Assembly: GCF_000967915.1 (NCBI RefSeq)
Contig: NC_022549.1
Span: forward strand, 434,001-498,000
Direction of reading: 5' to 3'
Length of the DNA stretch: 64,000 nucleotides
Source of the DNA: Paracholeplasma brassicae
GTDB lineage: Bacteria; Bacillota_I; Bacilli_A; Acholeplasmatales; UBA5453
Notes under the pieces: model-generated
Database searches by the model: none
What the model was told of the DNA's origin: nothing
What the model saw: the letters and a program-made list of their open reading frames with translations, nothing else
Translations under genes and position numbers: made by a program
In this document: piece by piece, positions 21,670-64,000 of the stretch
Numbering within the stretch: position 1 is the stretch's first letter
Layout: each line of letters begins with the position of its first letter

Positions 21670-22340
21670 ATGTCATTTTTTGATCGCTATATCAACTCAA
21701 AGCTTTATCATTACACAGATATTTTCTTTAAAATGATTTTACTTAATGTGTTAATGATTACAACAACCATACTAGGACTTGTCGTCTTTGGATTACCATT
21801 ATCGCTTCTAGTAGGGTCAATTTCGTTAAGGGTTATTTTAAAGAAAACGTCCGTTAATGTGTTTGAAGTGTACTTTAAAACGTTAAAAAGGGTGGTTAAA
21901 AAACCATTAAACCAGTCGTTGTATTTTCATTTATTTTGATGATACTAGGGTTTAATTCGGTCTATTTTTACTTTGGTTTAGAGCCGTTTGATTGGTTTTA
22001 TTTCATTAGTTTTTCATTGATGGTGTTCTTGTTTGTGTTCTCATTAGTGAGCTACATCCATGGACTATTCGTATCTGTGTTATACGATTTAAATGTCAAG
22101 TCACTTCTAAAACACAGCTATTTATTGACGATTGGGTTTATTGTTCGTAGCTTATTGTTACTTCTTATTGGGTTTGTCTATACCTATACACTGATTTTAA
22201 TTCCGATTCTAGGGATAATCATTGGATTGAGTGGGTTTAGTTTACTTATACTAGTGACTTTAGTAAGCGGTTATAAACGGATTCAACCACTTGATGAAGC
22301 ACTTGATGAAGAGGTAAAAAAAATCTTGGAAAGTGCTTGA
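21670..22340 (+). pseudogene. YesL-family (DUF624) membrane protein, frameshifted
   Basis: Two adjacent reading frames together make one YesL-like protein of about 223 residues. The first part (21670-21939, starting MSFFDRYINSKLYHYTDIFF after an AAAGGGG ribosome site) runs off frame after LKRVVKK; the second continues from about 21900 to 22340 with four hydrophobic helices. Frame changes at a run of six A (21898-21903). Seven A would restore the sequence RVVKKTIKPVVVFSFILMIL. So one base is missing, by mutation, slippage or sequencing error. It is related to the intact gene at 1260-1901 and, like it, sits next to ABC importer genes. Confidence 0.75.
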
Positions 22341-59029: not shown

Positions 59030-59266
59030 ATGATGTTTCTATCTATTTATCGCATTAAAGGCATTCATTGTGGGTCCTGTATCTCAAGAATCGAAAAAAA
59101 GGCGTTATCTCTTGGGGCTTATAAGGCAAGCTTTGATATCAAAGAAATGATTTTAAAGGTCTACTATGAAGAAGTAATCGATAATCAATTGTTTGTAGAA
59201 GAAGTCAAAAGCATGAACTATCAAATTGACTTTTTGGCTTCATATGACGAAGATGAGATTACTTAG
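59030..59266 (+). CDS. Small heavy-metal-associated (HMA) domain protein
   Basis: A 78-residue ferredoxin-like HMA domain with the metal pair Cys-Gly-Ser-Cys in GIHCGSCISRIEKKA. It would bind Cu(I) or a similar ion as a chaperone. ATG 59030 or 59033 follows AGGGGTG. It is coupled to the GH3 gene, an unexpected pairing; no copper ATPase is nearby. Confidence 0.75.
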   Translation: MMFLSIYRIKGIHCGSCISRIEKKALSLGAYKASFDIKEMILKVYYEEVIDNQLFVEEVKSMNYQIDFLASYDEDEIT

Positions 59267-62072: not shown

Positions 62073-62078
62073 TCGATT

Positions 62079-62107
62079 TGCATTATTTGACATTCTTGGC
62101 TATAATG
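62079..62107 (+). promoter_or_regulatory. Promoter of the candidate ncRNA
   Basis: TTGCAT, 17 bp, TATAAT (62102-62107). A transcript starting about 7 bp later would begin exactly at the left arm of the 15-bp inverted repeat. Confidence 0.65.
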
Positions 62108-62113
62108 TAAGTG

Positions 62114-62313
62114 TATTCCCCATATATAGATTTAGTTTTCAAAAATTAAGTATTTATTTAGTACGGGATTTACAAGATTTAGGATTTAAATATTTATATG
62201 AAGTAACAAGCAATTTACGAATTAACGACTCACTTACTTATTGATTTTCCTGTTTTAATGAAATGTAGTTTAGATTTAGTGACTTTCTTGTATGTAGATA
62301 TATGGGGAATACA
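62114..62313 (+). ncRNA. Candidate structured small RNA (~200 nt) closed by a perfect 15-bp stem
   Basis: The two ends, GTATTCCCCATATAT (62114-62128) and ATATATGGGGAATAC (62299-62313), are exact reverse complements 170 bp apart. A promoter sits at the correct distance before the first arm and there is no open reading frame between. The inside is AT-rich and holds AGATTTAG three times (about 62129, 62177, 62271). The overall layout, about 200 nt with paired ends and an open middle, recalls 6S RNA, but I cannot match conserved 6S or SRP RNA bases. A MITE-like element is an alternative; no target duplication is seen. Confidence 0.5.
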
Positions 62314-62358
62314 TTTATTAAAAAGATTCATAATTAAGTATCGTTTCAACAATAATCA

Positions 62359-62390
62359 AAACGCAGACTTCATAGGTTCTGCGTTTTTTA
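62359..62390 (+). terminator. Terminator after leuS / candidate ncRNA
   Basis: Perfect stem AAAACGCAGA / TCTGCGTTTT with a 10-base loop and T run. Confidence 0.85.
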
Positions 62391-62456
62391 TGTGAAAAAT
62401 TTGGCCGTTGTGAGCGGACTTTACCATTATTTTACAACAAAAAGTTGAGGGTTATC

Positions 62457-62520
62457 TTTACAGCGAAAAGGTTGTGTGTTAGAATATAGATAGATTTCTA
62501 TATAGATAGTTATCGATATA
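62457..62520 (+). promoter_or_regulatory. arsR promoter with palindromic operator
   Basis: TTTACA, 17 bp, TAGAAT (62480-62485). Overlapping and following it are ATAGATAG repeats forming inverted repeats (TATAGATAGAT..TCTATATAG and CTATATAGATAG..CGATATAG), typical of ArsR-type operators. Confidence 0.65.
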
Positions 62521-62534
62521 GTAGAAGAGGTGTC

Positions 62535-62825
62535 ATGATGAACGATTTAACCAATTTATTTAAGTTATTTACAGATGAGAATCGGATTGAGATTATCAAA
62601 CGATTGATTGATGGCGAAACGTGTGGGTGCACGCTCATCGATCAAATGCCAATTACTCAACCAACGCTATCTTATCATTTAAAGATGATATCAAGCGCAG
62701 GGCTTTCCAATACCGTAAAAGAAGGTAATTGGGTGAAGCACCACATCGATTTAAAGAAAATTGATGAAATGATTGAGTTTTTAGAAGAACTTAAAAATAG
62801 AGAAGTGATCTCATGCAAGTCGTAA
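62535..62825 (+). CDS. arsR: ArsR-family transcriptional regulator
   Basis: A 96-residue winged-helix repressor. LTNLFKLFTDENRIEIIKRL is the N-terminal helix pair, the Cys pair in GETCGCTLIDQM (about 28-32) is the ArsR-type metalloid site, and PITQPTLSYHLKMISSAGL is the recognition helix. ATG 62535 or 62538 follows AGAGGTG. It overlaps the permease gene by 13 bp, so it controls a metal(loid) operon including itself. Confidence 0.92.
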   Translation: MMNDLTNLFKLFTDENRIEIIKRLIDGETCGCTLIDQMPITQPTLSYHLKMISSAGLSNTVKEGNWVKHHIDLKKIDEMIEFLEELKNREVISCKS

Positions 62826-63829
62826 AAGATATTTTTTCATTTTTAAATGACGCACTACTTAAGATGACGTGGTTACAAACACTTGTGGATAACGCATTAG
62901 TTTATGTGTTTCAACTGAATAGAGACAGCTATTTATTTGATGCCGTGTCATTTTTCATTTATGATGTGATTAAGATTTTCATTTTACTCGGGACGTTAAT
63001 CTATCTGTCTTCCTACATTCAAGCCAAATTTACACCAGAGCGTACCAGACAAATACTCTCTAAATTTAAAGGCGTTTCTGGTAATGTGTTTGGGGCACTA
63101 TTAGGTACAGTGACACCATTTTGTTCGTGTTCCTCAATTCCAATCTTTATCGGGTTTACTAAAGCTGGACTACCAATCGGGGTAACATTTTCATTTTTGA
63201 TTTCTTCTCCACTGGTTGATTTGGCCTCGGTGATTTTATTAGCAAGCATCTTTAATTGGACGATTGCGATTGCATACGTCGTTGTCGGTTTGCTTATTTC
63301 GGTTATTGGCGGGACGATGATCGATAAACTAAAGATGGAAAAATACGTAGAATCGTTTGTTTATGAAGGGGCACTTTTTGAGGAAGAACAATCAATACCT
63401 ACTAAAAAAGAACGTCACGAATACGCGGTTGTTCAAGTTAAGGACATCTATAAAAAAGTATGGCTCTTTGTTTTAATCGGTGTCGGTATTGGTGCGTTAA
63501 TCCACGGGTATATTCCTGAGGCTTGGATAAATACAGTGTTAGGGAATGATAACCCGTTGTCGGTGATTATTGCGGCACTTGTGGGTATTCCAATGTATGC
63601 GGATATTTTTGGGACGTTACCGATTGCAGAAGCGCTTGTCTTAAAAGGCGTTGGTATCGGTACGGTATTAGCCTTTATGATGGGGGTAACGGCATTGTCG
63701 TTTCCATCGCTAGTTTTACTAAGTAAGGTGGTAAAAAAGAAATTGTTGTTTACATTCTTTGGAATTGTTACGCTAGGTATCATTGTTACGGGGTATTTAT
63801 TTAATCTTTTAGGCAGTTATTTCATATAA
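62813..63829 (+). CDS. Permease of the ArsP/YraQ (DUF318) family
   Basis: A 338-residue permease with about eight helices in two halves. The family motif with cysteines is GTVTPFCSCSSIPIFIGFTK near residue 97, and SFLISSPLVDLASVILL follows. The second half repeats the fold (VGIPMYADIFGTLPIAEALV). ArsP members export trivalent organoarsenicals; its place after arsR and before a small thioredoxin fits this or a thiol/metal role. Confidence 0.88.
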   Translation: MQVVKDIFSFLNDALLKMTWLQTLVDNALVYVFQLNRDSYLFDAVSFFIYDVIKIFILLGTLIYLSSYIQAKFTPERTRQILSKFKGVSGNVFGALLGTVTPFCSCSSIPIFIGFTKAGLPIGVTFSFLISSPLVDLASVILLASIFNWTIAIAYVVVGLLISVIGGTMIDKLKMEKYVESFVYEGALFEEEQSIPTKKERHEYAVVQVKDIYKKVWLFVLIGVGIGALIHGYIPEAWINTVLGNDNPLSVIIAALVGIPMYADIFGTLPIAEALVLKGVGIGTVLAFMMGVTALSFPSLVLLSKVVKKKLLFTFFGIVTLGIIVTGYLFNLLGSYFI

Positions 63830-63846
63830 AATAGGAGGATACAAAC

Positions 63847-64000
63847 ATGGAAATTAAAGTGTTAGGGACCGGATGTGCAAGTTGTAAACGTCTTGAGGCA
63901 CAAGTGATTGAGGCATTAAAGCAGTTAAACAAGAGTGAAGAAGTCATTAAAGTGACAGAAATCAAAGACATTATGAGTTATGGTGTGATGAGCACACCGG
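63847..64000 (+). CDS. Small thioredoxin-like redox protein (partial)
   Basis: The first 51 codons are present; the frame is open at the window end. It begins MEIKVLGTGCASCKRLEAQV: the CxxC pair Cys-Ala-Ser-Cys directly after the first strand is the mark of the small redox-active disulfide protein family (TM0996/MTH895 type). AGGAGG lies upstream, 17 bp after the permease. This family commonly follows DUF318 permeases and ArsR regulators. Confidence 0.9.
   Translation, partial: MEIKVLGTGCASCKRLEAQVIEALKQLNKSEEVIKVTEIKDIMSYGVMSTP

Follow-up and report, generated by a model that had tools for sequence, protein, structure and literature searches.

The interval downstream of leuS in Paracholeplasma brassicae almost certainly holds a real RNA gene, stand-alone and present as a single copy, as judged by comparing its sequence with those of relatives. 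Read directly from these sequences, the RNA represents a new non-coding family with its own putative sigma-A promoter, in which a near-invariant duplex of the two ends holds a variable, AU-rich loop with short motifs. Its placement as a new non-coding RNA family follows from a conserved layout, from changes that preserve pairing, from the absence of a companion reading frame, neighboring gene, virus or plasmid, and from the lack of a match in Rfam 15. An earlier sequence-only reading of this DNA had proposed a regulatory RNA, either of 6S type or of a new class. The RNA gene has strong support from its conservation in relatives and from changes that preserve pairing, and the new class from the missing Rfam match. 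The finding adds an uncatalogued small-RNA family to wall-less bacteria, a group where our searches mostly failed to detect canonical 6S RNA.

Architecture of the RNA gene in P. brassicae

The window analyzed here is a stretch of 64,000 nucleotides, positions 434001-498000 of the one-contig 1.88 Mb genome of P. brassicae (NC_022549.1), a member of the order containing Acholeplasmataceae; positions below are those of the window. On its upstream side the RNA gene is bordered by the leuS stop codon (62072), on its downstream side by a rho-independent terminator (Table 1). In relatives that lack the RNA at this place a similar terminator directly follows the leuS stop codon, and the terminator in P. 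brassicae probably also ends leuS.

Table 1. Features of the RNA gene in the P. brassicae window
Feature	Position	Strand	Remarks
Sigma-A-type promoter	62078-62106	+	-35-like TTGCAT 62078-62083, 17 nt spacer, -10 TATAAT 62101-62106
Predicted transcript	62110-62389	+	predicted from promoter and terminator
5' arm of closing stem, TGTATTCCCCATATAT	62112-62127	+	near-invariant in 29 aligned sequences
Inner motif 1 around GGGATTTACAA (family: GUAUUGGGAUUUAC)	62163-62173	+	enriched words, alignments
Inner motif 2 around AAGCAATTTAC (family: AAGCAAU.AUUUAC)	62209-62219	+	AAGCAA enriched, alignment
Tract TTTCTTGTAT just inside 3' arm	62284-62293	+	alignments; UGU invariant in 29 sequences
3' arm of closing stem, ATATATGGGGAATACA	62298-62313	+	exact match to TATATGGGGAATA confined to arms
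Rho-independent terminator	62358-62389	+	10-bp stem, 10-nt loop, T run

The closing stem, which the sequence-only reading had given as a perfect helix of 15 bp, is indeed perfect and consists of 16 Watson-Crick pairs; the arms are 170 nt apart and a clean terminator follows the right arm, both as that reading had stated. The TATAAT box that it placed at 62102, 6 bp before the left arm, exists, but the figures are slightly different: the box stops 5 nt short of the arm, and TTTGCA/TTGCAT is found 17-18 nt 5' of it. From this arrangement the candidate RNA start would be A62110 or G62111, that is, the A or G preceding GUGUAUUCCCC, and the RNA would end at the terminator; the stem-closed part of this predicted transcript is 62111-62314. 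The terminator, AAAACGCAGA-cttcataggt-TCTGCGTTTTTT, is a GC-containing hairpin that was identified by eye, its 10-nt loop being beyond the range of the terminator scan. Inner motif 1 is probably a hairpin loop or unpaired.

The element contains no open reading frame of at least 60 aa and no short reading frame is conserved across the family, which agrees with the earlier description of the middle as non-coding. An octamer, AGATTTAG, does occur three times in the RNA as had been noticed, but it is not shared by relatives and is peculiar to the P. brassicae copy. Rfam 15, at curated and loose thresholds, gave nothing over the RNA in the window and 15 relatives; a general Rfam/tRNA search gave no tRNA or tRNA-like match over it, and the 64-kb window as a whole contained no tRNA or Rfam family at cut-off. 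Sub-threshold matches to STnc370 and STnc50 at 62350-62468 (minus strand) were discarded as the terminator hairpin read backwards plus AT-rich sequence. The whole element folds with z = -2.9, mostly due to the closing stem; covariation is treated below.

Distribution among wall-less bacteria

In a DNA search of 61 genomes, the promoter and left arm turned up in several genera. We then have, from an order-wide search with a 22-mer at up to 3 mismatches, 32 matched genomes among 160 Acholeplasmatales, and true RNA loci in 29 of the 160, each with the right arm TATGGGGAAT 130-245 nt downstream. Carriage differs by genus, with the RNA in 5/5 genomes of g13, 18/20 of g14 and 3/7 of the window's own genus, in which G001 and G004, both 99% complete, do not have it. 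A class-wide search combined with covariance model R1 added four genomes from two other families (E-values of 1.7e-13 for G318, 6.8e-9 for G388, 2.6e-7 for G452 and 4e-5 for G417), bringing the family to 34 distinct sequences of 130-245 nt from ~30 species, a count from which divergent Acholeplasmatales members may be missing. Several candidates lacked the right arm or the context and were set aside as chance: the remaining three genomes matched by the 22-mer (L009, L036, L037), a weak model match in G005 (L055), and pattern matches L041-L044, L047, L048, L050 and L051.

A pattern scan of 84,980 species genomes returned 23 contigs whose titles name Acholeplasmataceae, Acholeplasmatales, Izemoplasmatales, Tenericutes, Bacillota or an unclassified bacterium, among them the isolate Peloplasma aerotolerans M4Ah. 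RNA-bearing hosts are cell-wall-less, mostly environmental bacteria. The family is accessible in a cultivable type strain, that of P. aerotolerans, and probably also in Mariniplasma. Since the P. aerotolerans paper reports three ncRNA genes only (PMC11122141), the RNA is probably unannotated there.

The neighbors of the RNA are ordinary chromosomal genes that differ between lineages, and its location varies even between species within one genus. No neighboring gene recurs beyond close relatives, and no integrase was found. A tRNA-Val(GAC) gene lies a few hundred bases 5' of the RNA at L002 (G002) and L003 (G003) of the window's genus and at the distant L049 (G452), and is absent at the other loci scanned. 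In the window, the RNA is followed at 62535-64000 by genes for an arsR-type regulator (PF01022), an ArsP-type permease (PF03773) and a small CxxC protein that is similar at its start to redox proteins of the thioredoxin-like kind; these genes likely form one operon, and the set showed no association with the RNA in other species. On the other side, at 59030-59266, a small HMA-domain (PF00403) metal-binding protein is encoded, flanked by genes for a GH3 family glycosidase and an acyl carrier protein.

Conservation and pairing across the family

Detailed anatomy was compared in 33 distinct sequences, plus the distant L123 (G388). All 33 have a -10 hexamer at a fixed distance 5' of the stem, with A in second and T in last position throughout and T in first position in 32. 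From the presumed first transcribed bases, every member can form a closing stem of 14-21 pairs, and a GC hairpin with a U run follows ~10-50 nt past the right arm in all 33. In the alignment of 29 sequences, 433 of 435 stem cells (99.5%) are in standard pairs, and shifting the partner column by 1-3 columns lowers pairing to 26-75%. The few changes leave G-C in place of U-A, altered on both sides, in five sequences, U-G in place of U-A in five, and U-G in place of C-G in a single sequence; L123 has an additional G-U pair, and in the distant L049 a 17-bp stem with a small internal bulge is retained. Support from covariation is confined to few columns because most pairs of the stem are invariant.

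The interior is AU-rich and variable in length. It carries the enriched motifs GUAUUGGGAUUUAC and AAGCAAU as well as UUUCUUGUAU adjoining the right arm; the most enriched inner words are GGGATT, TTGGGA and GATTTAC. The loop folds about as well as shuffled sequence (mean z -0.5; -0.95 for the first 65 nt). By inspection, many members have a putative first hairpin downstream of the left arm. An internal UUUACA/UUGUAU pairing that was present by eye in some members failed in others and was dropped. Between sister species the RNA is 92-99% identical in 9 of 11 pairs, with flanks mostly at 56-78% and up to 91% on one side; in the window's genus the loop evolves faster (49% identity between L002 and L003). 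By these sequence comparisons, the RNA is under purifying selection and its flanks much less so.

RNA stems normally drift by compensatory change, and a helix that is kept near letter-for-letter across several families of a class is unusual. The invariance points to a duplex that is read directly by a protein or used as a template.

Relation to 6S RNA

The RNA has in common with 6S RNA a closing stem formed from its 5' and 3' ends. As a statement of family membership, however, the 6S type put forward by the sequence-only reading was not upheld. With E allowed up to 5-10, RF00013 gave no score on the new RNA either in the window or in 15 relatives, and no conserved apical helix or rod was found, in line with the weak inner folding. 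The 6S motifs GAAUCCUAA and CCACCU occur in 0/33 family members versus 20/22 real 6S RNAs, and the similarity of the arms and inner motif to 6S or to the 6S template region is no better than to shuffled 6S. The RNA is therefore not filed as 6S, and descent from 6S, considered as homology by sequence, was rejected on the same grounds.

At its curated cut-off, RF00013 matched 0/160 genomes of the order, with working positive controls, and 16/40 genomes sampled from the class. No 6S match came from the 32 RNA-bearing genomes tested; the new RNA and canonical 6S did not co-occur in the genomes tested, and many genomes have neither. Two sub-threshold matches are recognizable. L039 (G013:C77:68661-68760, minus strand; 27.7 bits), from family f2 of the same order, is a plausible 6S RNA with GAAUCCUAA, and L144 (G300:C181:20138-20316, minus strand; 29.9 bits, under the Rfam cut-off), from family f24, is a rod-shaped 6S-like RNA that also carries GAAUCCUAA. 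Both genomes are without the new RNA. Canonical 6S looks ancestral and seems to have been lost, or to have become unrecognizable, in most of these lineages.

Possible functions

Our leading proposal, which we put forward tentatively and would not call probable, is that the RNA, like 6S, serves sigma-A RNA polymerase as a decoy. Entry of the polymerase would take place where the stem is AU-rich and easily melted, at its inner end, next to the conserved UUGUAU of the 3' side. With the 5' arm as template the enzyme would then make a short product RNA (AUAUGGGGAAUAC...), and this product would open the stem and set the polymerase free. Use of the 5' arm as a template would explain the invariance of both strands, whereas drift would be expected of a stem with a structural role alone. 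At its inner end the closing stem is entirely A-U, and UUGUAU stands at the place expected for the -10-like strand of the 3' bubble (PMC8876501); a truncated B. subtilis 6S-1 RNA with short arms still cycles in vitro (PMC8876501). Product RNAs of lactic acid bacteria and B. subtilis have as hallmarks GG at 4/5 or 5/6 and AA at 9/10 (PMC8414754), and the complement of the new RNA's 5' arm, AUAUGGGGAAUAC, has GG at 5/6 and AA at 9/10. This pattern is short and was noticed post hoc (estimated to arise by chance about 1 time in 10-20), so we hold the mechanism at no more than that tentative level. A 6S-like role is favored by the restriction of the RNA to genomes without detectable 6S, and by its size range and sigma-A promoter; the missing apical rod, 6S motifs and RF00013 score speak against it. 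G001, G004 and the many other genomes with neither RNA indicate that 6S-type control is not compulsory here. A broader evolutionary version, that free-living mollicutes replaced an ancestral 6S with an unrelated polymerase-regulating RNA whose paired ends serve as binding duplex and product-RNA template, we regard as an unlikely though conceivable extension.

The invariant duplex may instead be the site for an RNA-binding protein, and the loop may act as a sponge or, like that of bacterial Y RNAs, as a tether or scaffold, a reading that we consider possible but rather unlikely. It would account for sequence conservation on both strands of the stem next to a loop that varies in length and sequence and folds weakly inside. 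It also fits the uniqueness of the arms: in RNA-bearing genomes TATATGGGGAATA occurs exactly only at the two arms, bar one chance in-gene site in G071, while RNA-free genomes checked have no exact match and one-mismatch matches equal the reversed-pattern control. Yet Ro60/Rsr (TROVE), the known partner of such RNAs, was found in 0/27 genomes, RNA-bearing ones included, with a positive control, and no recurring neighbor gene offers itself as a candidate partner.

An Hfq-independent antisense RNA acting in trans, its ends protected by the stem and GGGAUUUAC, AAGCAAU and UUUCUUGUAU pairing with messengers, is in our judgment doubtful. The inner motifs are strongly enriched and conserved, the inner part is 91-99% identical in most comparisons of sister species, and a terminal stem would stabilize an sRNA; but this leaves unexplained the stronger conservation of the paired stem relative to the presumed seeds. 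The confinement of TATATGGGGAATA to the arms excludes full-arm antisense targets, and equally an operator regulon.

That restriction weighs on any reading of the locus as a DNA element, whether paired operators, paired recombination sites or a small transposable element with inverted repeats, since a regulon would require arms repeated elsewhere. The length of the inverted repeat and the change of place between species of one genus would suit such an element. Against it, the gene is single copy and unrepeated, its changes keep RNA pairing, G-U included, and promoter and terminator have fixed placement. Viral contigs, phage and plasmid records gave no match. The sequence-only reading had named a mobile element, with copies elsewhere and target duplications, as the alternative; we found one copy per genome rather than the multiple copies with target-site duplications of a miniature inverted-repeat transposable element. 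The sole exception is G071, where two 7 kb stretches (G071:C1, ~1672500 and ~1771400), 100% identical, each contain the RNA gene, reflecting either a recent duplication or an assembly artefact. The DNA-element reading is very improbable and nearly excluded by now.

An inverted repeat arisen by chance between genes, for which the AT-rich region (24-27% GC) would speak, has practically no probability left, being refuted by the conservation in ~30 species. Dinucleotide shuffles of the whole window (n = 40) also speak against it: they gave a mean of 0.025 15-bp repeats and not a single one of 16 bp. With arms at most 300 nt apart, the arm pair of the RNA is the sole inverted repeat of at least 14 bp in the window. 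The second-longest distant one, at 21722-21734 and 21835-21847, has 13 perfect bp with ~100 nt between.

Comparison with known RNAs

We place the new RNA in neither the 6S nor the Y RNA family. It resembles 6S RNA in length range, sigma-A promoter, paired ends and single stand-alone gene, and may resemble it in the GG at 5/6 and AA at 9/10 of an RNA that would be copied from its 5' arm. It differs in a stem that is perfect and sequence-invariant, whereas that of 6S is interrupted and variable, and in having no GAAUCCUAA, CCACCU, conserved apical arm or model match. In bacterial Y RNA (YrlA) a variable loop domain sits on a long stem built from the 5' and 3' ends (PMC8394870), an end-to-end layout that it shares with the new RNA. 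Unlike Y RNAs, however, the new RNA has no Rfam match and no Ro60/TROVE gene was found in the 27 genomes, and because no Ro60 protein was found it is not placed among them. The uORFC-13-1 motif, a structured RNA candidate in the genus Acholeplasma (PMC8632094), is an upstream leader of aroF that includes a short reading frame, in contrast to the stand-alone RNA described here with its varying contexts. Ms1 RNA of Actinobacteria, a separate RNA polymerase-binding RNA in a group lacking 6S (PMC9130861), sets a precedent for polymerase binding in a 6S-less group; it differs in its ~300 nt, its host group and its binding to the RNA polymerase core, its sequence having been compared through Rfam only. 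If the new RNA does take the place of 6S, it would join 6S and Ms1 as another independent RNA that regulates RNA polymerase.
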